Positions 3,518-58,104 of a stretch of 63,601 nucleotides of DNA are shown here, one piece after another. Within the stretch, counting starts at the first letter, position 1; the number at the start of each line of letters is the position of its first letter. The DNA comes from Leptospiraceae bacterium. GTDB taxonomy: Bacteria > Spirochaetota > Leptospiria > Leptospirales > Leptonemataceae. A program made the translations under genes and the position numbers. Location of the stretch: assembly GCA_026005135.1 (NCBI GenBank), contig BPKM01000010.1, forward strand, positions 1 to 63,601. Reading direction: 5' to 3'. The notes beneath the pieces are model-generated. The model was not told the DNA's origin. It did no database searches and saw only the letters and a program-made list of their open reading frames with translations.

Positions 3518-6500
3518 ATGCCACAAAAAAAACAACCTTCCGAAATGGTTTCAAACCATAAAATTACAAGAAAGAGCTTTTTAAAGATTTTAGGCGTTGC
3601 TGGTGCTACCGCAGTAATTGGTTCACTTAAAGATAAGCAATTATTTGCTTTTACAGAACCTTTTAAGCATGATAATCCTTTAAATGGTTATCCTAATAGA
3701 GATTGGGAAAAGCAATATAGAGATTTTTATAATTATGATTCTACATTTCATTTTCTTTGTGCTCCTAATGATACGCATAATTGTTTATTAAAAGTCTATG
3801 TAAAAAATGGTGTTGCAATACGTATTGGACCTTCTTTTGGATATGGAAAAGCAACAGATATTTATGGAAATAAAACAACTCAAAGATGGGATCCACGTTG
3901 TTGTAATAAGGGTTTGGGTTTAATTCGTAGATTTTATGGAGATCGAAGAGTAAAAGATCCAATGATTCGTAAAGGTTATTTAGAATGGATCAAAGCTGGA
4001 TTTCCACGTGATCCGGAAACAGGTAAACCCCCAGAAAAATATTTTAAACGCGGTCAGGATGATTGGGTAAAAATAAGTTGGGAAGAAGCATTTGAATATA
4101 CTGCTAAAGCAATGGAAAATATTGCAAAGACATATTCTGGGGAACAGGGTAAACGATATTTATTAAAACAAGGTTATGATCCCGATATGGTTGAAGCCAT
4201 GAATGGAGCTGGAACACAAACATTTAAATTTCGTGGTGGAATGGCTGCTCTTGGAGCTACACGCATTTTTGCTCAATATCGTTTAGCAAATTCTTTAGCA
4301 TTATTAGATGCAAAAATTCGCGGTGTTTCCTATGATAAAGCACTTGGTGGTCGTGGTTGGGATAATTACAGCTGGCATACTGATTTACCGCCAGGACATC
4401 CAATGGTAACCGGTCAACAAACACATGATTTCGATCTGGCAAATGCTGAATATGGAAAGCTTCTTGTTGTTTGGGGTATGAACTGGTTAACAACGAAAAT
4501 GCCAGATGCCCATTGGTTAACAGAAGCAAGAATGAAAGGTTCAAAGGTTGTTGTAATTGCAGCAGAATATAGTGCAACAATGAATAAAGCAGATTATGGA
4601 TTGGTAGTTCGTCCTGGTACATCACCAGCCTTAATACTTGGTTTTTGTTATTTATTTCTAAAAAATAAAACTTATAGCGAAGAATTTTTAAAACGATATA
4701 CAGATATGCCTTATTTGGTTCGCCTCGATAATTTGCAAATTTTACGAGCTAACGATATTGATCCTAATTATAAGCTTGCAGAATTAAAAGAAAATATTGT
4801 TATTTTAAAACAAGGTGATAAACCACCAAAACCAACATTACAATTTGGACCTATTGTTTCTGAAAGTTTACGAAAAGAATGGGGAGATTATGTTGTGTGG
4901 GATAAAGATTCTAATCAACCAATTATAGTAACAAGAGATCATTATGGTAAAAAATTTAATATCAATGCTGCTTTAGAAGGAACATTTACAATAAAATTAG
5001 CAAATGGTAAAAAAATAAAAGTTCGTCCGGTATTTGATTTATTAAAAGAATATATAATGAATAACTTTGATCCAGATACAGTTTCTGAAATTACCTGGGC
5101 TCCTAAAGAAGGTATATTGGAAATCTATAATGAACTTGTTAAAAATAAAGGTCAAACATTATTTTTCTTTGGAATGGGACCAAATCAATTTTTTAACAAT
5201 GATTTAAAAGATAGAACAGCATTTTTTCTTGCTTCATTAACAGAGAATATTGGTAAACCTGGTGGTAATATAAGTAGTTATGCAGGTAATTATAGAGCTG
5301 CTTTTTTTAGTGGTATTGGAACATATGCATTAGAAGATCCTTTTAATATTACTTTAGAAGAAGATAAACCAGTAAAAATTAAAGGATATTGGAAAGGAGA
5401 ATCTGTACATTATTTTAATCATGGAGATAATTTATTAAGAATGGGTAAAGAAAGAATCACTGGTAAAACCCATATTCCAACACCTACAAAATTTATTCAT
5501 GTATCCAATAGTAATTCTCTTATTGGGAATATTAAAGGACATTATGATCTTATAATGAATACATTACCAAAAGTGGAATATTTAGCTGTTAATGAATGGT
5601 GGTGGACACCATCAACAGAATATGCAGATATCGTTTTTGCCGTTGATAGCTGGGCTGAATTTAAACATCCTGATATGACAATTTCTGTAACCAATCCATT
5701 TTTATATATCTATCCAAGAACACCATTAAAACGGATTTATAATACACGTTCAGATATTGAAGTTGCAGCAGGAATTGGTAAAGCATTAGCAAAATTAACA
5801 GGTGATAAACGTTTTGAAGATTACTGGTATTTTGTATTTCAAGATAAAACTACCGTTTATTTACAACGGATTCTTGATAATAGTAATTCTTTTAAAGGTT
5901 ATAATATTATAGAACTCGAAGAAAAAGCAAAACAAGGAATACCTGCTTTAATGATGACAAGAACAACACCAAAAACAGCTGGTTGGGAACAAATTAATGA
6001 AGACAAACCATTTTATACAAAATCCGGTCGCTTAGAATTTTATCGAGAAGAAAAAGAGTTTATTGATTCTGGTGAAAATATTCCAGTATATAGAGAACCA
6101 ATTGATTCTACTTTTTATGAACCCAATGTGATTGTTGCAAAGCCTCATATTGCATTAAAACCACGTTCTCCAGAAAGTTATGGTGTAAGTTCTTCGAATT
6201 TAGAAGGAGAAATTAGACAGGCAAGACATGTAATAAAAGAGTGGAAAATATTAAAACAAACACAACATCCTTTAATGAAGGATGGTTATCGATTTATTTT
6301 TCATACACCAAAATATAGACATGCAGTACATACAACAGGACATGATACAGATGTCGTAGCAATATGGTTTGGTCCATTTGGAGATATGTATCGTTTTGAT
6401 AAAAGAAAACCATTTATAACAGAAGGATATATAGATATTAATCCACTTGATGCTAAGGAATTGGGATTGAATGATGGAGATTATGTTTACGTAGATGCTG

Positions 6501-7004
6501 ATCCTCATGATAGACCGTTCAAAGGTTGGCAAGATCGAAAAAAAGATTATCAAGTTGCTCGATTATTATGTAGAGTTAGATTTTATCCAGGTACACCAAG
6601 AGGTGTAACAAGAATGTGGCACAATATGTCTCCAGCTACGTATGGAACTGTACTTGGAGCGAAAACAAATCCCAAAGGACTCGCGATGAATCCTAAAACA
6701 GGTTATATTTCTTTATTTAGAAGTGGTTCTCATCAAAGTTGTACAAGAGGATATTTAAAACCAACATGGATGACTGATTCTCTTGTTAGAAAAAATTTAA
6801 TTGGACAGGTTGTAGGAAAGAGGATTTGCTCCTGATGTTCATTGTCCTACTGGTGCTCCAAGAGAAGCATTTGTAAAAATCACAAAAGCAGAAGCTGGTG
6901 GATTAAATGGTGTAGGTGTCTGGAAGCCAGTAGAAAAAGGTTTAACCCCTACAAATGAAAATCCCATTTTTAAACAATATATTTCAGGTAAATTTATCAG
7001 TTAA
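3518..7004 (+). CDS. Type II DMSO-reductase-family molybdoenzyme, catalytic alpha subunit (frameshift near 6821)
   Basis: Catalytic molybdopterin subunit of an exported enzyme in the Ebd/Ser/Ddh/Clr/Pcr/Nxr group. The N terminus has a Tat-like signal ([14 protein letters not shown]) with Arg-Lys instead of Arg-Arg. A [4Fe-4S] site follows with C81-x3-D85-x3-C89 and C128/C129: Asp stands where most relatives have Cys. WHTDLPPG (about residue 285) carries the Asp expected to bind Mo. The first frame stops at 6833-6835 after 1105 residues. The next frame continues from about 6822 to 7004 with 60 more residues ([20 protein letters not shown]...) that complete the family's C terminus. One extra base around 6819-6822 therefore breaks the gene: real mutation, sequencing error or programmed shift. 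A strong ribosome site (TTGGAGG) precedes the ATG. Beta, gamma and chaperone genes follow. The substrate (nitrite/nitrate, selenate, chlorate, perchlorate, hydrocarbon) cannot be decided here. Confidence 0.9.
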
Positions 7005-7021
7005 TATTTTACAAAGATAAA

Positions 7022-7035
7022 GGTGGGTGGGTGGG
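7022..7035 (+). other. G-run cluster (potential quadruplex) before the beta-subunit gene
   Basis: The run GGTGGGTGGGTGGG has four G-runs separated by single T residues, the geometry of a compact two-tetrad quadruplex. It stands alone in very AT-rich DNA between the alpha stop (7004) and the beta start (7082), and would lie in the transcript. It resembles the G-run clusters at 56791-56970. No function is known to me. Confidence 0.6.
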
Positions 7036-7081
7036 ATATTATGTAAATTATTATAATAAAATTTACTAAAAGGAGTCTTAT

Positions 7082-8209
7082 ATGCCCAAGGTAAAAAACT
7101 GGCAAATTAATAGAACAATGGAATATCCTTATGAAGAAAATAGACCCAAAAAGCAAGTAGCATATATATTTGATACAAATAAATGTATTGAGTGTCAAAC
7201 ATGTTCTGTAGCCTGTAAGACTACCTGGACTTCAGGTCGTGGACAGGAAGCAATGTTCTGGAATAATGTAGAAACGAAACCCTATGGATTTTATCCAACT
7301 GCCTGGGACGTTAAAATTCTGGAAAAATTGGGACCACAAAAATGGAATAATAATACTTATACCGGTAAAACAATTTTTGAGGCTGCACCACAAGGCGAAA
7401 GAGTCTTAGGATATTTACCAGAAGATGAAGATTATGCAAGTCCAAATATAGGAGAAGATGAAATAACAGGTATTATAAACAAAGGAGCTTTTTTTAAGAA
7501 TATTCATTCTGCCTGGATGTTTTATTTAGCAAGAATCTGTAATCATTGTACTTATCCAGCATGTCTTGCAGCTTGTCCCAGAAAAGCAATCTATAAAAGA
7601 GAAGAAGATGGAGTTGTGTTAATTGATCAAAGTAGATGTAGAGGTTATAAAGAATGTGTTAAAGCATGTCCTTATAAAAAAACATTTTATAATATTATAA
7701 CCAGGACATCAGAAAAATGTATCGCTTGTTATCCATTATTAGAAAGAGGAGAACAACCAAGATGTGTTCAAACATGTATAGGTAAAATACGATTACAGGG
7801 TTGGCTTTCTAAACCAGAAAAAATTGATCCAGATAATCCTATTGATTATATTGTACATGTTAAAAAGGTTGCATTACCATTATATCCACAATTTGGTTTA
7901 GAACCTAATGTTTATTATATACCACCAGTTCATGTACCAGAAAAATTCTTAAAACAAATGTTTGGTCCTAATGTAAAAAAAGCTATAGAAACATATAGAA
8001 AGGTGCATTCTGATAAAAAACTATTAGCAGCATTATTATTATTTGGAAATACACCTTATATAATTACTAAATTTAAAGTAGAAGGAGAAGAAGCGGTTGG
8101 ATTTAATGAAAAGGGAGAAGAAGTTGTAAGGGTACCATTCCAGGAACCATTTTTTCAAAGACCATTTTTTGATAAAGAAAATGAAGTATATAGAATTAAT
8201 ACCACATAA
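7082..8209 (+). CDS. Molybdoenzyme iron-sulfur beta subunit (NarH/NxrB/EbdB type)
   Basis: A 375-residue electron-transfer subunit without a signal peptide; in this family it is carried across the membrane together with the Tat-tagged alpha subunit. Four Fe-S motifs are visible. The first is [11 protein letters not shown] (about residues 33-43), followed by [21 protein letters not shown], characteristic of the NarH/NxrB/EbdB branch. Next are [14 protein letters not shown] and [15 protein letters not shown], where Tyr takes the place of one Cys as expected for a [3Fe-4S] cluster. The last is [20 protein letters not shown]. The ribosome site AAAGGAG is 7 bp before the ATG. It lies between alpha and gamma and passes electrons from or to the haem of gamma. 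Confidence 0.93.
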
Positions 8210-8220
8210 GGAGTTTAACT

Positions 8221-9021
8221 ATGAAAAAGTTAATACAATTTATAATTTTCCTATGTTTTGTTAAAGGATTACTGGCAGATGGATATACTGTAAAATATAA
8301 AAATATTTCTGATAATTTTTTTCTTAAGCCCAATCCAGAAGAAAAAATATGGGATAATATAAATGAATTTGTAGTAGAATTGATGCCTCAGAATATTACG
8401 ACGCCTTCTTTACAAAAAAGAACTGTTCCTTTTGTTAAAGTAAAAGCTATTCACAATAAAAAGTATATTGCTATATTATTAGAATGGCTGGATCCTACAA
8501 AAAATGATATTACCGATGTGGATAAAGCAAGTGATGCGTGTGCAATACAATTTCCAAGAAAAGATTTTAATTCAACTTCTCCTTTTATGGGGCACGAAGG
8601 GGCACCTGTTGTAATTTTTCATTGGAAAGCAATATGGAACCGTGATATAGAAAAAGGATATGTAAAATTAGAAGATATACATCCAAATGCATTTACAGAA
8701 ACATATATGTTTGGTAAAGAAATAGCAAGAGAAGCCAATAATCCCATATCTAAGGAAAATAGAATTTCACCAGTTGAGGAATTACATGCGGAAGGTTTTG
8801 GCACTTCTACACATGCAGAAGAAGCTGATATTCGTGCATGGGGTATAAAAACGTTAAATGGATGGAAAGTAATGTTTACATATAAATTTGATTCAGAATT
8901 AATACCTACTTTAAAACCTGGTTCTAATACTGGAATAGCATTTGCGATATGGGGAGGTAATAATAAAGACATTGGCGCAAGAAAAAATTATGCTCCATGG
9001 CAACCAATATATATAGAATAG
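8221..9021 (+). CDS. Molybdoenzyme haem-b gamma subunit (EbdC/DdhC-like)
   Basis: Encodes 266 residues with a Sec signal peptide (MKKLIQFIIFLCFVKGLLA, cut after LLA). The mature protein has the beta-sandwich pattern of the ethylbenzene-dehydrogenase-related haem domain (start EEKIWDNIN, ILLEWLDPT, DACAIQFP, MGHEGAPVVIFHWKA). In this family a Met and a Lys bind haem b; the Met in FMGHEGAP is a plausible ligand, the Lys is not pinned down. It would transfer electrons between the beta subunit and a periplasmic cytochrome. It starts 11 bp after beta, with ribosome site TAAGGAG. Confidence 0.85.
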   Translation: MKKLIQFIIFLCFVKGLLADGYTVKYKNISDNFFLKPNPEEKIWDNINEFVVELMPQNITTPSLQKRTVPFVKVKAIHNKKYIAILLEWLDPTKNDITDVDKASDACAIQFPRKDFNSTSPFMGHEGAPVVIFHWKAIWNRDIEKGYVKLEDIHPNAFTETYMFGKEIAREANNPISKENRISPVEELHAEGFGTSTHAEEADIRAWGIKTLNGWKVMFTYKFDSELIPTLKPGSNTGIAFAIWGGNNKDIGARKNYAPWQPIYIE

Positions 9022-9029
9022 GTATTATT

Positions 9030-9674
9030 ATGAAAACAAAAGAAAAATATATTCAGGATTTATTAATTCAAGCAGATTTATATCGTTTAATCGCCCTTGG
9101 CTTTACTGTTATGGACTGGGAAAACCAGTCCATTTTTTTTGATAATTTAAATGATTTTCTTTCATTAGATTTTGATAAACTCTTAATTTTAGAAAATAAT
9201 TTTTATAGAACCGAAATACAATTATTCAAAGAATTATTAAATTATAAAGATCAATCATTAGAAGGAGAATATCATCGTTTATTTGATCTTCAAAGTGGTA
9301 TTCCATTTTCTGAAGCAGCATATGTAAATATAGAAAAAGGGAATGTTTTAGGTGATGTTACTTCATTTTACAAAGCAGTGGATTTTCCCTATTTAACAGA
9401 AAAAGTTGGCTCTCCCGATACTATTGACAAAGAAACTGGTTTTATATCGTACTTATTTTTAAAGGAATTTTCTATTACACAAGATAATACCTTAACAGAT
9501 ACAGAAAAAGAAGAAAAAAAAGATATTATTATTGATTTAAGATATAAATTTTTAAATGATCATTATTTAAGATGGGTTCCAGAATTTATAAATTTATTAA
9601 TGTCTTCAACAGAAAATGGTTTTTATCTAAATTTAGGAAAAAGTTTACAATTATTAATAGAAAAAATTCATTAA
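9030..9674 (+). CDS. Molybdoenzyme assembly chaperone (TorD/DmsD/NarJ-type delta)
   Basis: About 214 residues from ATG at 9030. An earlier ATG at 8997 lies inside the gamma gene and is less likely. The sequence is all-helical, begins MKTKEKYIQDLLIQADLYRLIALGF, and contains EGEYHRLFDLQSGIPFSEAAYV, which matches the substrate-binding region of TorD-family chaperones. These bind the Tat signal of the apo-alpha subunit and assist Moco insertion; the protein is cytoplasmic. It is the last gene of the alpha-beta-gamma-delta operon, the standard order of type II DMSO reductases. Confidence 0.85.
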   Translation: MKTKEKYIQDLLIQADLYRLIALGFTVMDWENQSIFFDNLNDFLSLDFDKLLILENNFYRTEIQLFKELLNYKDQSLEGEYHRLFDLQSGIPFSEAAYVNIEKGNVLGDVTSFYKAVDFPYLTEKVGSPDTIDKETGFISYLFLKEFSITQDNTLTDTEKEEKKDIIIDLRYKFLNDHYLRWVPEFINLLMSSTENGFYLNLGKSLQLLIEKIH

Positions 9675-9735
9675 TTTTTTAATAGACATTAAAAAAACAT
9701 GTTTTATTTTAGTAGAAATAACGTTTAAATTAATA

Positions 9736-9837
9736 AAATCCTCCGATCCACATTACCTAAGGCATAATGCTATGGTATGTGGACGATAGGGTATGGATAG
9801 AAATGTCCATGCCTGCCGGGATTGCAAAGGAGGTTTC
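9736..9837 (+). promoter_or_regulatory. Moco (molybdenum-cofactor) riboswitch controlling moaA
   Basis: The leader folds as the Moco RNA motif. P1 pairs CCTCC (9740-9744) with GGAGG (9829-9833), flanked by AAA/TTT pairs. P2 pairs TCCACAT (from 9747) with ATGTGGA (9777-9783), enclosing a smaller hairpin with GCA/TGC. A second arm pairs GGTATGGA (9790-9797) with TCCATGCC (9806-9813) around an 8-nt loop. The conserved CTCCGA at the 5' side and GCCTGCCGGG...AAAGGAGG at the 3' side are where the family has them. The 3' strand of P1 is the Shine-Dalgarno of moaA, 4 bp before ATG 9838, so ligand binding should hide it and lower translation. It senses Moco, the product of the operon it controls. Confidence 0.88.
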
Positions 9838-10833
9838 ATGTTATTTATAACACCACATATTTATCAGGATTATCCAGAATCAAAAAATACATCCTTTAAT
9901 TCAGTTTATGATTCCTATGGAAGAACATTTCAAACAATACGTTTAAGTCTATTACCAGTATGTAACTTTCAATGTATTTATTGTAAAACAGAAGAAGAAA
10001 ATTATAAATATAAAATTCAAAAACCAGATTATTTTATAAAATTAATATATAAAATAAAAAAAATAATAAATATAAAAAAAATTCATTTAACTGGTGGAGA
10101 GCCCACTTTATATCCATATTTAGAAGAAATTGTAAAAGGATTAAAATCATTAAATATTCCAGAGGTTTCTATAACTACAAATGGAACATTATTATTAAAA
10201 AAATTACATACATTAAAAATGGCTGGCATTGATAGTATTAATTTATCTCTTGATGCAATTGATAATTCTGTTTTAAAAAAAATGGGGACAAAAAAGCAAT
10301 TTGAATTTTATGACAAATTGATAAATGAAATTTTAAACTTAAATATCTCTTTAAAAATTAATACAACTATTTTAAAAGGATTTAATGAAAATCAAATTTT
10401 GCCTTTATTAGAATATTGTGGAAAAAGAAATATTATTATAAGATATTTAGAATATATGTTAATGGGAGTAAGTGAAACCATTCATAAAGAGCGTTTTTTT
10501 AGTATGTTTGATATTTTAAATGAAATACAAAAAAGATATCAAATAAAAGAATTAAAAAGAGAAAAACATTCAACAGCGAATTACTGGCTAACAGATACAA
10601 ATTACAAATTTGGAATTATAGCAAATCATTCTAAACCATTTTGTATGGATTGTGATCGCTTAAGAATTGATTATAATGGTAATCTATATGGATGTATAAC
10701 TCAAAAAAAAGGTATTCCTATGGACTTTTCTGATTCAGAAAACGAAATATATGATAAATTAAATATTGCTATTAAGAATAAACAACTTATTTTTAAAGGT
10801 AGTTCTAATAAAATGCATTATATAGGTGGTTAA
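9838..10833 (+). CDS. moaA: GTP 3',8-cyclase MoaA
   Basis: A radical-SAM enzyme of about 331 residues that converts GTP to the cyclic precursor of molybdopterin. The SAM cluster motif is CNFQCIYC (Cys-x3-Cys-x2-Cys, about residues 42-49), followed by LTGGEPTLYP. The C-terminal cluster is represented by the FCMDCDRLRIDYNGNLYGC segment. I place the start at ATG 9838, directly after the riboswitch-embedded ribosome site AAAGGAGG. A longer frame beginning at 9793 would run through the riboswitch and add residues unlike MoaA. It is the first gene of moaA-moaC/mog-moeA-moeB. Confidence 0.95.
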   Translation: MLFITPHIYQDYPESKNTSFNSVYDSYGRTFQTIRLSLLPVCNFQCIYCKTEEENYKYKIQKPDYFIKLIYKIKKIINIKKIHLTGGEPTLYPYLEEIVKGLKSLNIPEVSITTNGTLLLKKLHTLKMAGIDSINLSLDAIDNSVLKKMGTKKQFEFYDKLINEILNLNISLKINTTILKGFNENQILPLLEYCGKRNIIIRYLEYMLMGVSETIHKERFFSMFDILNEIQKRYQIKELKREKHSTANYWLTDTNYKFGIIANHSKPFCMDCDRLRIDYNGNLYGCITQKKGIPMDFSDSENEIYDKLNIAIKNKQLIFKGSSNKMHYIGG

Positions 10834-10834
10834 T

Positions 10835-11758
10835 ATGATTGATATTACAAATAAATTTAAAACATTACGATATGCAAAAGCACAGGCTATAGTAAAATTT
10901 CCAGAATTTCTTTATGAAAAAATAATAACAAATGATTTACCCAAAAAAGATCCATTAATTTTTGCCAAAGCAGCTGGAATGCTTGGTGTAAAAAAGACAC
11001 CAGATTTAATTCCACATTGTCATCCCATACCAATAGAATATTTTAATATTGATTATGAATTAAATAAAGATCATATTTTAATTATAGCAGAAGCTAAAAC
11101 GATTGCAAGAACAGGTATAGAAATGGAAGTTTTAACAGCTGTTTCTATAACTGCATTAACTATATATGATTTATTAAAACCAGTAACAAAAGAATTGGAA
11201 ATTACAGAAATAAAATTAATTCATAAAGAAGGAGGAAAATCTGATAGATGGAAGCGAGTAAGAGAAGGGTTAAGTTGTGCTGTACTTGTTTGTTCCGATA
11301 CAATATATAAAAAATTTAAAGAAAATCAACCTATACCAGAAGAAAAGTCTGGTAAATTAATCATTGATAAAGTAAAAGAGTATGGAGTAGAATGTAAGGA
11401 TTATAAAATTTTACCAGATGAACCAGAAGAAATAAAAAAATGGATATTAGAAAAATTGGAACAAAAAATTCCTTTTATCTTTATAACAGGTGGTACAGGT
11501 CTTGGACCAAGAGATAATACTGTAGAAGTATTAAAAGAAATAGGAGGTAAAGAAGTTCCAGGTATTTCTGAAGCAATGCGAATTTATGGATACGAAAGAA
11601 CACCACTTGCTATGATGTCTCGTGCTATTTCTGTAATGAAAGATGGTTGTTTAATAATTAGTTTACCTGGAAGTTCAAAAGGAGTAGAAGAAAGTTTACA
11701 GGCAATTTTACCAGCTGTTTTCCATGCAGATCGAATGATGAGAGGAGAAAGACATTAG
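10835..11758 (+). CDS. moaC-mog: MoaC-MogA/MoaB fusion: cPMP synthase plus molybdopterin adenylyltransferase
   Basis: Two Moco enzymes in one 307-residue chain. Residues 1 to about 145 are MoaC, forming cyclic pyranopterin monophosphate: TPDLIPHCHPIPIEYFNI, GIEMEVLTAVSITALTIYD and KEGGKSD carry the family's active-site Lys and His. Residues from about 150 are a MogA/MoaB domain, which adenylates molybdopterin before metal insertion: CSDTIYKKF at the start, SGKLIIDKV, then FITGGTGLGPRDNTVEV and SLPGSSKGVEESLQ. ATG 10835 is one base after the moaA stop, with AGGTGG overlapping the moaA end as ribosome site; an upstream GTG at 10826 is less likely. MoaC and MogA act at different steps, so the fusion couples them in amount rather than as neighbours in the pathway. 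Confidence 0.93.
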   Translation: MIDITNKFKTLRYAKAQAIVKFPEFLYEKIITNDLPKKDPLIFAKAAGMLGVKKTPDLIPHCHPIPIEYFNIDYELNKDHILIIAEAKTIARTGIEMEVLTAVSITALTIYDLLKPVTKELEITEIKLIHKEGGKSDRWKRVREGLSCAVLVCSDTIYKKFKENQPIPEEKSGKLIIDKVKEYGVECKDYKILPDEPEEIKKWILEKLEQKIPFIFITGGTGLGPRDNTVEVLKEIGGKEVPGISEAMRIYGYERTPLAMMSRAISVMKDGCLIISLPGSSKGVEESLQAILPAVFHADRMMRGERH

Positions 11759-11794: not shown

Positions 11795-13015
11795 ATGATA
11801 ACAATTAAGGAAGCAATTGAATTAATAAAAAAAAATTTACCAGAAAGAAAAGAGGAATTAAGAAAAACCTACTCATGTAATCATTTTACTTTAGCAGAAG
11901 ATATATATGCACAATTTCCAAGTCCCTATTTTGATAATTGTGCAATGGATGGTTATGCTATTTCTATTGAAGATGCAGAATTATTATTATCAAATTTTAA
12001 TCAAAATAATGAATTTGAAGTTATAGGAATAAGTCAGGCTGGAAAACCATTTACTGAATCTCTAAGTTCTGGTAAATGCATTCAAATTAATACTGGTGCA
12101 AAAGTTCCTCAAAATACTGGAGCTATAATTCCTGTAGAAGATGTTGAATATATGGATTCTGATAGATTAAAAATAAGAGTTAAAAATATTCATAAAAAAT
12201 TCCAGCATATAAGAAGAAAAGGAGAAGAATTTCAGGAAAATTCTTTTTTATTACCAAAAGGTACAATTTTAAATCCAAGAAATATAGCTTTATTATTACA
12301 ATCTGGGAAAAATGAAATTTTTGTTTATAAAAAACCTAAAATTTTACTTATAACGACAGGAACAGAATTGATTTCTTTTCAGGACGGTATAATCGAAGAA
12401 GATATGGAAAATGGAAAAATTTTAGATACAAATGCTTATTTACTTTCAGCAGTTTTAGAAGATAAAAATTATGAATTTAAATTATATTCTCAAATACAGG
12501 ACGAAGAAGGTCAAATTTATAATATATTGCAAAACAACAATGATTATGATATTATAATTATTACTGGAGGTGTTTCGGTAGGTCCTTATGATTATGTAAA
12601 AAAAGATGTAGAAAAAGCTGGATTTAAACCAGTATTCTGGAAAATAAAGCAAAAACCTGGAAAGCCATTTTATTTTGCTAAAAAAGAAAATACAGTACTA
12701 TTTGGTTTACCTGGTAATCCTGTTTCTTCGTTTATAAATTTTCAACATTATGTATTACCAGCAATTAAATATTTAGAATCCGGACAGTGGTTATATAATC
12801 ATATTTTTCTTAAATCAAAGGTTGATATTTCTAATGAAGGTAATAGAGATATATTTTTTACTATTCGTATTAAAGATAAAGAATATTTTGAATTAGCAGA
12901 ACAGCAGGGTTCTCATAAATTATCATCAATAGCTTATTCTGATGGCTATATTATAGTTCCTGTTGGTTCTAAAATTCAACAAAATGAATCTCTTATTTGT
13001 TATCAATGGATGTAA
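11795..13015 (+). CDS. moeA: Molybdopterin molybdenumtransferase MoeA
   Basis: A 406-residue MoeA, which inserts molybdate into adenylated molybdopterin. Motifs in order: YFDNCAMDGYAI near residue 50, GKCIQINTGAKVPQNTGAIIPVED, then the MPT-binding fold (TTGTELI, IIIITGGVSVGPYDYVKK) and KQKPGKPFYFAKK followed by GLPGNPVSS. The C-terminal domain is short but present. It follows the MoaC-Mog fusion by 36 bp and overlaps the next gene by 10 bp. There is no clear Shine-Dalgarno before the ATG. Confidence 0.95.
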   Translation: MITIKEAIELIKKNLPERKEELRKTYSCNHFTLAEDIYAQFPSPYFDNCAMDGYAISIEDAELLLSNFNQNNEFEVIGISQAGKPFTESLSSGKCIQINTGAKVPQNTGAIIPVEDVEYMDSDRLKIRVKNIHKKFQHIRRKGEEFQENSFLLPKGTILNPRNIALLLQSGKNEIFVYKKPKILLITTGTELISFQDGIIEEDMENGKILDTNAYLLSAVLEDKNYEFKLYSQIQDEEGQIYNILQNNNDYDIIIITGGVSVGPYDYVKKDVEKAGFKPVFWKIKQKPGKPFYFAKKENTVLFGLPGNPVSSFINFQHYVLPAIKYLESGQWLYNHIFLKSKVDISNEGNRDIFFTIRIKDKEYFELAEQQGSHKLSSIAYSDGYIIVPVGSKIQQNESLICYQWM

Positions 13016-14067
13016 AACGATTTAGTAGACAAATTATAATTGAAGAATTTGGAATAGAAGGACAATTATTATTAAATCGATCTAAGGTTTTAATTATTGG
13101 ATTAGGAGGTCTGGGAAGTCCAGTCTCTATATATCTTGCATTAGCTGGTGTGGGAAAATTAGGTCTTTTTGATTTTGATAAAGTAGATTTATCCAATTTA
13201 CAAAGACAGCCATTATTTTTTGAAGAAGATGTTGGTTCTTATAAAGTAGATATAGCTAAAAAGCGATTAAAAGAATATAACAAAAATATTCAATTAGAAA
13301 TCTATAAAGATTACTTTGATATAAAATATAAAGATATTTTTAAAGATTATGATTTAATAGTTGATTGCACAGATAATATACCAACAAGAAAAATGATCAA
13401 CCAAGCTTCTTTAGAAATGGGAAAACCATTTTTATATTGTTCTATTGATCAATTTAGTTTACAAATTTCCTTATTGAACTATAATAATGGTCCATGTTAT
13501 GAATGTTTGTTTCCAGATTTAGAAAATTCTTCTTTAATGAGTTGTGTAGATAGAGGAGTATTAGGACCTGTAGCTGGTATAGCTGGATTATATCAGACCT
13601 TAGAAGCAATTAAATATTTATCAAATATGAATTTTTTAAAAAATCAAATTTTATTTATAGATTTATTAAAATATAAGCAATTAAAATTAGCAATAGAAAA
13701 AAATAAAAATTGTAAGTGTAATCAATATTATAAAAATCAAGAGATTAAAAACACAAAAAAAGAATATAATATATCCTACATAACAATTGATGAATTACCA
13801 TTGAGATCAAATGAATATGTTATATTAGATTTAAGAACAGAAGAACAAAATAATAAAAATTTATATAATAAAATAAATCTAAATAATAAAAAAATATATA
13901 AAATTGATTTAAAAGAACTGCCCTATAAAGCAGGTCAATTGCCATCAGATAAAGATATAATAATTCTATGTTCATCTGGAGCAAGAGCAAGACAAGCTGC
14001 TATTTTATTGCAACAATTAAATTACTCTAGTATTTATTGTTTACAGTTAGATGAATTTTTATTATAA
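13006..14067 (+). CDS. moeB: MoeB/ThiF-type adenylyltransferase with C-terminal rhodanese domain
   Basis: About 353 residues from ATG 13006, overlapping moeA by 10 bp. The E1-like domain has the nucleotide loop GLGGLGSP near residue 30, the DFDKVDLSNLQRQ element, and DCTDNIPTRKMIN. A structural zinc is suggested by C-x2-C (CYECLFP) and a late C-x-C (NCKCNQYY). After about residue 250 a rhodanese domain follows, ending with the persulfide loop CSSGARA. Such proteins activate the C terminus of a sulfur carrier (MoaD or ThiS) and help load sulfur on it, as in MOCS3/Uba4. The Moco context favours MoaD; no moaD or moaE lies in the window. A role in thiamin synthesis or tRNA thiolation cannot be excluded. 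Confidence 0.88.
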   Translation: MDVKRFSRQIIIEEFGIEGQLLLNRSKVLIIGLGGLGSPVSIYLALAGVGKLGLFDFDKVDLSNLQRQPLFFEEDVGSYKVDIAKKRLKEYNKNIQLEIYKDYFDIKYKDIFKDYDLIVDCTDNIPTRKMINQASLEMGKPFLYCSIDQFSLQISLLNYNNGPCYECLFPDLENSSLMSCVDRGVLGPVAGIAGLYQTLEAIKYLSNMNFLKNQILFIDLLKYKQLKLAIEKNKNCKCNQYYKNQEIKNTKKEYNISYITIDELPLRSNEYVILDLRTEEQNNKNLYNKINLNNKKIYKIDLKELPYKAGQLPSDKDIIILCSSGARARQAAILLQQLNYSSIYCLQLDEFLL

Positions 14068-14653: not shown

Positions 14654-14950
14654 ATGGAAAGATTAGAGGATTCTAAGATTTTAGAAATAATAAAAAATGA
14701 ATTACCTGAATGGAAGTATCAGAATAATAAATTATTACGTGAACTCAGATTTAAAGATTTTAAACAAGCTTTTACTTTTATGACTTTATGTGCACTAAAA
14801 TGCGAACAGATGGATCATCATCCAGAATGGTATAATGTTTATAATCAATTAAAAATAGAATTAAATACTCATTCAGTTAATGGCATAACAAATTTAGATA
14901 TAGAGCTTGCAAGATATATAGAGGAACAATATAAAAATATAAAAATATGA
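14654..14950 (+). CDS. Pterin-4a-carbinolamine dehydratase family protein
   Basis: A complete 98-residue PCD/DCoH protein. The active-site signature is intact: MDHHPEWYNVYNQLKIELNTH (about residues 51-71), with the His-His pair and the later His, followed by GITNLDIELARYIEEQ. The classical enzyme dehydrates the 4a-hydroxy-pterin formed by aromatic amino-acid hydroxylases. No such hydroxylase is visible here, whereas the Moco genes end only 600 bp upstream. Published comparative genomics (Naponelli and colleagues) linked a subgroup of this family to Moco metabolism, and the location fits that. TATAAT at 14630-14635 could be its -10 box. The stop overlaps the next start as ATGA. Confidence 0.92.
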   Translation: MERLEDSKILEIIKNELPEWKYQNNKLLRELRFKDFKQAFTFMTLCALKCEQMDHHPEWYNVYNQLKIELNTHSVNGITNLDIELARYIEEQYKNIKI

Positions 14951-55518: not shown

Positions 55519-56631
55519 ATGAAAATTACGCGATCACATTTAATAAAAAGTGTTATCCCCGCTACGTTAACTTCAACATTACTTTATTGTAATAAGAATA
55601 ATAATAATTCAAATAATGAGAAAAACGATAATCCTAAAATAATGTGGAAATGTGTATCAAGTTATCCAAGAAGCTTAGATACAATTTTTGGTGGTGCGGA
55701 ACTTCTTTCTAAGATTGTTAGAGAAATGACAAATGGAAATTTTAATATACGAGTTTATCCAGCAGGAGAGATTGTACCGGGTCTTCAGGCGATGGATGCT
55801 GTTCAAAATGGTTCTGTAGAAATGGCTCATACTGCTTCTTATTATTTTACTGGAAAAAGCGAAGCTTTAGCATTCGATACAAGTGTTCCTTTTGGTCTTA
55901 CATCAAGACAGCAGAATGCCTGGTTATATCATGGAGGGGGTTTGGAACTAATAAGATCTATCTATAGTGATTTTAATATAATAAATTTTCCTGGAGGTAA
56001 TACAGGATGTCAGATGGGTGGTTGGTTTCGCAAGGAGGTAAATAGTGTAAATGATTTAAAAGGTTTAAAGATGCGGATACCTGGATTAGGAGGTAAGGTG
56101 ATGAGTGCTTTAGGGGTAAATGTTCAGGTATTAGCAGGTGGAGATATATATCCGGCATTAGAGAGGGGAGCGATAGATGCGACAGAGTGGGTAGGACCTT
56201 ATGATGATGAGAAACTTGGATTTTATAAAGTAGCGAAGAATTATTATTATCCAGGTTGGTGGGAACCAGGTGCTAATTTAACATTTCTTGTAAATAAAGA
56301 TGCTTGGAATAAATTACCAGAACATTATAAAATTATTTTAGAATCTGCTTTTAGATATGTTACGTTAGATATGCAGGCAAAATATGATGTTCAAAATCCA
56401 CAAGCATTACAACGATTAGTACAAAAGGGGGTTAAGTTAAAAAAATTCTCAGATGATATAATGAAAGCAGCATATAAAATTTCGAAAGATATTATGGAAG
56501 AATTAGCTTCTAAGGATAAGACATATAAAAAAGTATATGAATCCTGGAAAAAATTTCGTGGTGATGAAAGTGAATGGTTTAAAACAGCAGAGCTAACATA
56601 CGCAAATTTTAGTTTTCTAATAAAAGAATAA
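55519..56631 (+). CDS. dctP: TRAP transporter substrate-binding protein, copy 1
   Basis: A 370-residue DctP-type binding protein close to the TakP/FcbT1 (COG4663) branch that carries keto acids, lactate or aromatic acids. The leader MKITRSHLIKSVIPATLTSTLLYC could be lipidated at Cys 24 and has a weak Tat-like start (TRSHLIK). The core contains MWKCVSSYPRSLDTIFGGAE, GEIVPGLQAMDAVQNG and the ligand region GLKMRIPGLGGKVMSALG with DATEWVGPYDD. Bases 55734-56270 and 56494-56618 are almost identical to the second copy, while the rest is diverged. Ribosome site AAAGGAG. No permease follows directly; the permease genes are after copy 2. Confidence 0.92.
   Translation: MKITRSHLIKSVIPATLTSTLLYCNKNNNNSNNEKNDNPKIMWKCVSSYPRSLDTIFGGAELLSKIVREMTNGNFNIRVYPAGEIVPGLQAMDAVQNGSVEMAHTASYYFTGKSEALAFDTSVPFGLTSRQQNAWLYHGGGLELIRSIYSDFNIINFPGGNTGCQMGGWFRKEVNSVNDLKGLKMRIPGLGGKVMSALGVNVQVLAGGDIYPALERGAIDATEWVGPYDDEKLGFYKVAKNYYYPGWWEPGANLTFLVNKDAWNKLPEHYKIILESAFRYVTLDMQAKYDVQNPQALQRLVQKGVKLKKFSDDIMKAAYKISKDIMEELASKDKTYKKVYESWKKFRGDESEWFKTAELTYANFSFLIKE
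55734..56270 (+). repeat. Near-identical 537-bp segment shared by the two dctP genes (copy at 57210-57746)
   Basis: By direct reading the two segments differ at only 2 bases (around 55912-55920) with no gap, offset 1476 bp. The boundary is sharp: sequence before and after is clearly diverged. A second block of 125 bp, 56494-56618 matching 57970-58094, is identical at the same offset. The segments are also more G-rich than neighbouring coding DNA. Confidence 0.95.
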
Positions 56632-56751
56632 ATAAATGAAATTCAATTATTATAACATTAAAACTTTTTTTATTGCAAATATTTATGAATAAATTTATAT
56701 GGAATTAATTTAATTTCGAATTTAATAACATTAATAATCAGAAAGTAAAGC

Positions 56752-56980
56752 GTCGTCAAGGATTATTTGACGACAAACAAAAATAGTTCGGTTGGGAGGT
56801 AGAAATCTGTCATTAGGTTAACCTGACGATAACTCTAAAAATGGCGGGTGGGACTAAATAATCGTTGGGTTTGCACAACGGCAACAGGAGGGTGGGCGGG
56901 ATAACAATAACCTTCGTCGGGCTTTGCACGACGACAACTCTTAAAGAAAAATATTAGGGAGGTGGGAGGGACGACAACTT
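56752..56980 (+). repeat. Array of small hairpins, GACGACAAC boxes and G-run clusters
   Basis: Four hairpin units follow one another: GTCGTCAA/TTGACGAC (56752-56774), GTCA/TGAC with inner GG/CC (56809-56827), CGTTG/CAACG with loop GGTTTGCA (56863-56880), CGTCG/CGACG with loop GGCTTTGCA (56915-56933). Each ends in a GACGACAAC-like box, with a fifth box at 56970. The units alternate with G-run clusters: GGTTGGGAGG, GGCGGGTGGG, GGAGGGTGGGCGGG and GGGAGGTGGGAGGG, the last two with four G-runs. Box spacing is about 40-56 bp. Local G+C is far above the surroundings. It occupies the leader of the second dctP gene and ends about 15 bp before its start. The rest of the 363-bp gap (56632-56750) is plain AT-rich DNA. 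Confidence 0.8.
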
Positions 56981-56994
56981 TAAAGGAGAGAGGT

Positions 56995-58104
56995 ATGAAA
57001 ATTAAAAGAAAAGATTTATTAACAAAAGTTTTACCAGTATCCGCTGGTATGGTAGGTTTGGCGTATTGTAAGCCAGCCCAACAGGGTGGGGGAGAAAATA
57101 CCAATAATCCTAAAATAATGTGGAAATTAACTTCTAGTTTTCCAAGGAGCTTAGATACAATCTATGGTGGTGCAGAAGTTATGGCTGAATATGTAAAAAA
57201 AATGACAGGTGGAAATTTTAATATACGAGTTTATCCAGCAGGAGAGATTGTACCGGGTCTTCAGGCGATGGATGCTGTTCAAAATGGTTCTGTAGAAATG
57301 GCTCATACTGCTTCTTATTATTTTACTGGAAAAAGCGAAGCTTTAGCATTCGATACAAGTGTTCCTTTTGGTCTTACATCAAGACAGCAAAATGCGTGGT
57401 TATATCATGGAGGGGGTTTGGAACTAATAAGATCTATCTATAGTGATTTTAATATAATAAATTTTCCTGGAGGTAATACAGGATGTCAGATGGGTGGTTG
57501 GTTTCGCAAGGAGGTAAATAGTGTAAATGATTTAAAAGGTTTAAAGATGCGGATACCTGGATTAGGAGGTAAGGTGATGAGTGCTTTAGGGGTAAATGTT
57601 CAGGTATTAGCAGGTGGAGATATATATCCGGCATTAGAGAGGGGAGCGATAGATGCGACAGAGTGGGTAGGACCTTATGATGATGAGAAACTTGGATTTT
57701 ATAAAGTAGCGAAGAATTATTATTATCCAGGTTGGTGGGAACCAGGAACAACATTAAGTTTCTTAATCAATAAAGATGCTTGGAATAAATTACCAGAACA
57801 TTATAAAGCAATTTTAGAAGCAGCCTGTGCATATGCAAACATTGATATGCAAGCAAAATATGATGCAAAAAATCCAGCTGCCTTACAAAGAATGGTAAAA
57901 CAAGGAGTCAAATTAAGAAAATTTTCTGATGATATAATGAAAGCAGCATATAAAGCATCAACAGAAATGATGGAAGAATTAGCTTCTAAGGATAAGACAT
58001 ATAAAAAAGTATATGAATCCTGGAAAAAATTTCGTGGTGATGAAAGTGAATGGTTTAAAACAGCAGAGCTAACATACGCAAATTTTAGTTTTCTTGCAAA
58101 ATAA
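56995..58104 (+). CDS. dctP: TRAP transporter substrate-binding protein, copy 2
   Basis: About 369 residues from ATG 56995, which has the strong ribosome site AAAGGAGAGAGG. A GTG at 56962 in the repeat array is not the start. The leader MKIKRKDLLTKVLPVSAGMVGLAYC has a Tat-like KRKDLL (Arg-Lys, not Arg-Arg) and a possible lipid Cys. The core equals copy 1, including GEIVPGLQAMDAVQNG and the GLKMRIPGLGGKVM ligand region. The diverged parts (residues 1 to 70 and 250 to 325) include part of the second lobe, so substrate or partner may differ. It is followed by a terminator and then the permease genes. Confidence 0.93.
   Translation: MKIKRKDLLTKVLPVSAGMVGLAYCKPAQQGGGENTNNPKIMWKLTSSFPRSLDTIYGGAEVMAEYVKKMTGGNFNIRVYPAGEIVPGLQAMDAVQNGSVEMAHTASYYFTGKSEALAFDTSVPFGLTSRQQNAWLYHGGGLELIRSIYSDFNIINFPGGNTGCQMGGWFRKEVNSVNDLKGLKMRIPGLGGKVMSALGVNVQVLAGGDIYPALERGAIDATEWVGPYDDEKLGFYKVAKNYYYPGWWEPGTTLSFLINKDAWNKLPEHYKAILEAACAYANIDMQAKYDAKNPAALQRMVKQGVKLRKFSDDIMKAAYKASTEMMEELASKDKTYKKVYESWKKFRGDESEWFKTAELTYANFSFLAK

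Follow-up and report, generated by a model that had tools for sequence, protein, structure and literature searches.

The stretch of DNA analysed here (the window, 63,601 nucleotides) carries on its forward strand a Moco RNA, preceded by an operon for a nitrite-oxidoreductase-like enzyme and followed by moaA, moaC-moaB, moeA and moeB, in this order (Table 1). The covariance model RF01055 (Rfam Moco RNA) aligns with the leader of moaA over its entire length, positions 1-135 of 135, scoring 82.6 bits where the gathering score is 36, with an E-value of 1.6e-18 for the whole window (cmscan). The membership in the Moco RNA class proposed in the original prediction is thereby borne out. No second copy was detected in the window, nor elsewhere in the 3.4-Mb genome to which it belongs (G000, 94% complete), probably that of a relative of Leptospira.

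Table 1. Features of the moaA leader and of the adjoining genes
Feature	Position	Strand	Basis or remark
Enzyme operon: nitrite-oxidoreductase-like alpha, Fe-S beta, heme-b-type gamma, chaperone	3518..9674	+	7b04; TIGR03478, TIGR03477 and TIGR03482 best hits, under curated cut-offs
Moco RNA aptamer, entire RF01055 match	9729..9848	+	cmscan, 82.6 bits
P1, 5' strand CCTCC	9740..9744	+	Paired with GGAGG 9829-9833 (model and folds)
P2 arm	9747..9783	+	9747-9753 and 9755-9757 paired with 9774-9783 (model and fold)
Inner hairpin of the P2 arm	9761-9764/9768-9771	+	Model and fold
Linker CGATA, 5 nt, at the place of P3 in P3-bearing members	9784..9788	+	P3 absent
P4, GAAA tetraloop 9800-9803	9789..9814	+	Model and fold; stem 9789-9799/9804-9814
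P5 and loop	9815..9825	+	2 bp, 9815-9816/9824-9825; loop bases 9818-9823 predicted to pair alternatively with 9737-9742
Shine-Dalgarno AAAGGAGGT	9826..9834	+	Sequence and model; includes P1 3' strand 9829-9833
moaA, start moved to 9838	9838..10833	+	TIGR02666 best hit, E 1.2e-67, under curated cut-off; Radical_SAM and Mob_synth_C; congeners
moaC-moaB fusion	10835..11758	+	NF002947, 357 bits, cut-off 285
moeA	11795..13015	+	MoeA_N, MoCF_biosynth and MoeA_C above Pfam cut-offs
moeB/ThiF-type adenylyltransferase with rhodanese domain	13006..14067	+	

The core stems of the family, P1, P2, P4 and P5, are all present in the model alignment and in the fold. Both recovered the arms initially drawn as P1 (CCTCC/GGAGG) and P2, the outer part of the latter being TCCACAT (9747-9753) paired with ATGTGGA (9777-9783). 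The third arm then proposed, GGTATGGA/TCCATGCC, is indeed paired, but its identity had to be corrected: it is part of the longer P4 stem of the published model, while the optional P3 stem is absent. The 98-nt core (9739-9836) folds with -39.2 kcal/mol (z -3.86), and none of 200 shuffled sequences folded as well. In an alignment of 11 P3-less relatives, for 20 of the 30 consensus pairs at least one sequence has changed both bases and still pairs, a count uncorrected for kinship. This alignment comprised ten members of the bacterial class of the window, including one under the cut-off (G022), and one sequence from outside it (G059); the P3-bearing G038 was excluded. The window RNA is an ordinary member of RF01055 that lacks P3.

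The 3' strand of P1 lies within the Shine-Dalgarno sequence of moaA, as had been anticipated and as sequence and model alignment agree, with GGAGG ending 4 nt 5' of the ATG at 9838. This overlap is of an already known kind, a ribosome site within P1 having been published in 2008 for E. coli moaA (PMC2408646). In one congener (G001) a stop codon immediately 5' of the equivalent ATG opens the moaA frame, and in another (G003) no in-frame start codon precedes that ATG. Therefore moaA starts at 9838, the position to which the original prediction had already shifted it, and a start at 9793 is rejected. The MoaA of the window is 70% identical to that of G003 and 61% identical to that of G001. A gene for pterin-4a-carbinolamine dehydratase (14654-14950, NF002018) lies on the same strand, downstream of the moa-moe genes.

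The adjoining operon, expected to encode a Moco enzyme, does so according to its alpha subunit, whose best solved relative is subunit A of nitrite oxidoreductase (PDB 7b04, E 4.1e-255), the next structural match being an enzyme of the perchlorate-reductase type (E 8e-54). TIGR03478, TIGR03477 and TIGR03482 are the best hits in the operon, all under their curated cut-offs. Inspection by eye indicated that G003 keeps the last two genes of the operon just before the RNA and that G001 does not. No report of a nitrite-oxidoreductase-like enzyme in spirochaetes was found in the accessible text of the literature searched. Elsewhere in the window, positions 55519-58104 hold two adjacent, near-identical reading frames of 370 and 380 aa, which look like duplicated solute-binding proteins of a TRAP-type transporter.

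P3 and target genes across the phylum

The use of P3 as a discriminator between molybdenum and tungsten rests on a correlation drawn in 2008 (PMC2408646). In that paper, 58 of 176 Moco RNAs lacked P3 and P3-less RNAs were read as likely sensors of the tungsten cofactor (Tuco), Tuco genes being present in 17 of 19 organisms with such RNAs. The P3-bearing RNAs occurred 'exclusively' with MPT or Moco genes. Homologues of tupA/tupB and wtpA served as tungsten markers, and direct ligand binding could not be shown. No later test of the rule was found in open-licence literature, as far as its text was accessible. The missing P3, overlooked when the leader was first described, makes the locus a test case for the 2008 rule.

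Within the phylum, RF01055 was found in at least 53 of 392 genomes (at least 51 over the cut-off), at no fewer than 80 places (at least 77 over the cut-off), and aldehyde ferredoxin oxidoreductase (AOR, PF01314) in at least 108; these counts are lower bounds, with at most eight RF01055 and four AOR candidates scored per genome. The state of P3 was called from the distance that separates P2 from P4; over the 80 places this is bimodal, measuring either 0-7 or 18-63 nt. Eight places for which the script gave a wrong value or none of use were set by eye (L028, L058, L059, L062, L074, L076, L079 and L086), of which L062 is ambiguous and was counted as P3-less. In the Rfam alignment the P3 region is filled with bases at L010 and at the 10 P3-bearing places shown, with one pair only in L074, and P3 was called by folding alone in L039, L060, L064, L068 and L087. 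Places under the cut-off, L013 (before moaA), L088 and L089 (before tupA), were excluded from the counts.

The target was defined as the longest reading frame starting up to 900 nt downstream, or as a tblastn match there. NF041772 was the best model for all six TupA proteins searched and for L065, always under its curated cut-off of 400, with 3lr1, a tungstate-binding protein, among the nearest solved structures (L025, E 8e-85; L026, E 8.9e-40); the remaining tupA labels came from clustering or tblastn. All six MoeA labels were given by Pfam, and those of MoaA by Pfam (window, L006 and L009) or by alignment (L002 and L004). For formate dehydrogenase the representative L029 was searched and the other 11 were labelled by clustering, and the AOR labels stem from NCBIfam (L068) or from clustering or tblastn (the others).

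The results showed that P3 is present in 16 of the 77 RNAs, ten of them before tupA, four before AOR, one before moeA and one before a BtuC-like permease; in L060 a ferredoxin-like gene lies between the RNA and AOR. The 61 P3-less RNAs precede tupA (7), AOR (7), formate-dehydrogenase-like genes (12), moaA (5), moeA (5) and other or unassigned genes (25). A tungsten target (tupA or AOR) follows 14 of 16 RNAs with P3 against 14 of 61 without it (Fisher p 3.6e-6, the related genomes not being independent). Should the formate dehydrogenases be tungsten enzymes, this contrast narrows, with 26 of 61 among the P3-less RNAs, but the point that P3-bearing RNAs stand before tungsten genes holds even then. 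The P3-bearing tupA leaders span five families (f34, f43, f50, f52 and f55), and in f34 the tupA leaders over the cut-off are divided into four with P3 and four without.

Within one genus, the moeA leader of G038 (L010) has P3 and that of G036 (L011) does not, which suggests that P3 was recently gained or lost in front of moeA and rejects P3 as a fixed trait of lineages; both genomes have modA and neither has AOR. Presence of AOR fails as a predictor of the P3 type across 51 genomes: AOR is found in 28 and missing from 10 of those with P3-less RNAs only, found in 10 and missing from 2 of those with P3-bearing RNAs only, and found in the single genome with both types. Since P3-bearing RNAs precede tungsten genes to such an extent, P3 is no guide to the metal in this phylum, to which the claim that the 2008 rule fails is limited.

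Five RNAs of the survey (L056, L067, L069, L077 and L079, the last assigned by NCBIfam) lie before members of an L-glutamate gamma-semialdehyde dehydrogenase cluster, and another five (L040, L041, L045, L048 and L070, the last by Pfam) before members of a TonB-dependent-receptor-like cluster; the genes of both clusters have no known link to Moco.

Outside the phylum, RF01055 was found in 48 of 398 Pseudomonadota genomes (47 over the cut-off), and each of the 30 places examined out of 48 had a MoaA match within 200 nt. A linker of P3 size was seen at 18 of these 30, where the fold recognised P2, and the other 12 gave no call; GGAAAGG stands shortly before the start codon in most of the 30 leaders, as a further case of the known ribosome-site arrangement. 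These findings fit the 2008 rule for Pseudomonadota. A leader from SAR324 (L184) is P3-less and precedes moaA.

Metal use and the probable ligand

Because the P3-less subtype was tied to the tungsten cofactor, molybdenum as the metal of the ligand has to be argued from genome content. The window's genome has modA and modB over the cut-off and gave no AOR match. No AOR over the cut-off was present in 48 genomes, from its own up to class rank, and G018 had one match under it; TupA had no match in 12 genomes of the class (16 genomes searched) and WtpA none in 14, G000 being included in both sets. ModA was over the cut-off in 6 of the 16 genomes searched (G000, G001, G003, G034, G036 and G038). 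It is for these that molybdate use is best shown, because modA had no match in five genomes of the class that carry the RNA and lack AOR (G006, G010, G015, G022 and G040). PF00384 occurs at six places in G000, the nxrA-like gene among them; one of the proteins is nearest to periplasmic nitrate reductase, and others weakly resemble either ArrA or thiosulfate reductase, or formate dehydrogenase or thiosulfate reductase. Judged by its genes, the organism that harbours this P3-less RNA looks like a molybdenum user. Marker genes alone are a limited guide to tungsten use, and absence of TupA is a weak argument against it, as G053 carries AOR genes but gave no match to TupA. A congener of the window, G002, had no match to RF01055, modA, TupA or WtpA and has possibly lost the use of molybdenum.

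A further reading, to which we give slightly less than even odds, is that P3 is not the metal discriminator, so that the P3-less RNAs of the window's lineage would sense Moco and the P3-bearing RNAs of other spirochaetes, those in the leaders of tupA and AOR, would sense Tuco. If true, the 2008 rule would be broken in both directions, and the choice of metal would reside elsewhere in the aptamer or would not exist. The contrast within one phylum, between a P3-less leader in a genome where molybdate transport but no tungsten genes were detected and P3-bearing leaders of tupA, makes the relation of P3 to the metal testable.

Variation of P3 before one and the same gene, as with moeA in a single genus and tupA in family f34, would also be expected of an aptamer blind to the metal, or of one whose ligand is molybdopterin still lacking its metal, with the role of P3 restricted to tuning stability or kinetics. 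This seems unlikely, as the RNA of E. coli reacts to molybdate and loses its repression under tungstate, which shows that at least one member discriminates (PMC2408646). Still more doubtful is that the window RNA is a Tuco riboswitch repressing moaA when the tungsten cofactor accumulates. Its missing P3, the 17 of 19 organisms cited above and the P3-less RNAs of the phylum that stand before AOR, tupA or formate dehydrogenases that could be tungsten enzymes agree with such a sensor, but G000 shows no AOR, TupA or WtpA match and yet has modA and modB, and P3-bearing RNAs precede tungsten genes too.

A candidate translational switch

The P3-less Moco RNA of the window is probably a translational OFF switch for moaA that senses the molybdenum cofactor. 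This logic follows the precedent of the E. coli moaA leader, which represses when Moco is made (PMC2408646). The RNA would bind the cofactor, presumably in its molybdenum rather than its tungsten form. With abundant molybdenum cofactor, P1 would close and bury the Shine-Dalgarno sequence, switching translation of moaA off; under a shortage of cofactor, some of that P1 strand would take another pairing partner, so that the ribosome site stays accessible. If moaC-moaB, moeA and moeB share the moaA transcript, as we infer, the switch would affect these genes as well. The absence of terminator-like sites at 9600-9900 fits a translational platform, and a terminator platform was dropped. A promoter scan gave one site against 2.3 expected.

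Folding predictions for three leader lengths give P1 a pair probability of 0.79-0.96 without ligand at equilibrium, with GGAGG mostly paired, and a cost of 1.8-5.0 kcal/mol for opening the Shine-Dalgarno sequence. With P1 predicted to be closed without ligand, switching would depend on folding during transcription or on some other aid. When the leader is ended just 5' of the Shine-Dalgarno sequence, the 5' side of P1 (9737-9742) is predicted to pair with the P5 loop (9818-9823) with a probability of up to 0.95, and this helix is a candidate for the ligand-free state. An alternative helix is predicted in all three RNA-bearing congeners, the window included, reaching 0.66 in G001 and 0.83 in G003. 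The helix of G003 uses different bases from those of the window, and its full leader is still predicted to favour the alternative helix, P1 having 0.02. No such helix was predicted in five other relatives; these include G015, whose P1 was set wrongly by the script. That the fold is a relic, kept as a leader after moaA translation escaped control by a ligand, would accord with a P1 predicted to be closed without ligand, but is very improbable in view of the 82.6 bits, the intact core stems and the compensatory changes among relatives.

Comparison with known Moco RNAs

The probable riboswitch of the window extends a known class to a further bacterial lineage, and with it one gene start is corrected. 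No report of a Moco riboswitch in spirochaetes was found in the accessible open-licence literature, and the available text of PMC9495176 mentions neither Spirochaet nor Leptospir. The closest described system is the Moco RNA of E. coli moaA (Regulski et al. 2008, PMC2408646), with which the window RNA shares the family RF01055, the stems P1, P2 and P5 and the GAAA-capped P4, as well as the location before moaA and the ribosome site in P1. The GAAA tetraloop on P4, with a receptor in the P2 bulge, was described there as a feature of the class. The E. coli RNA differs from that of the window in having P3, which is required for its control; it is also the RNA in which tungstate derepresses and molybdate elicits a response (PMC2408646). 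The Tuco subtype proposed in the same paper lacks P3, as does the window RNA, but was tied to tungsten markers, and of the markers sought here (tupA and wtpA from that paper, and AOR as an addition) none had a match in G000. Finally, the Moco RNAs with P3 that precede tupA and AOR in the same phylum belong to the same Rfam family, and differ from the window RNA by the presence of P3 and by their tungsten-gene targets.
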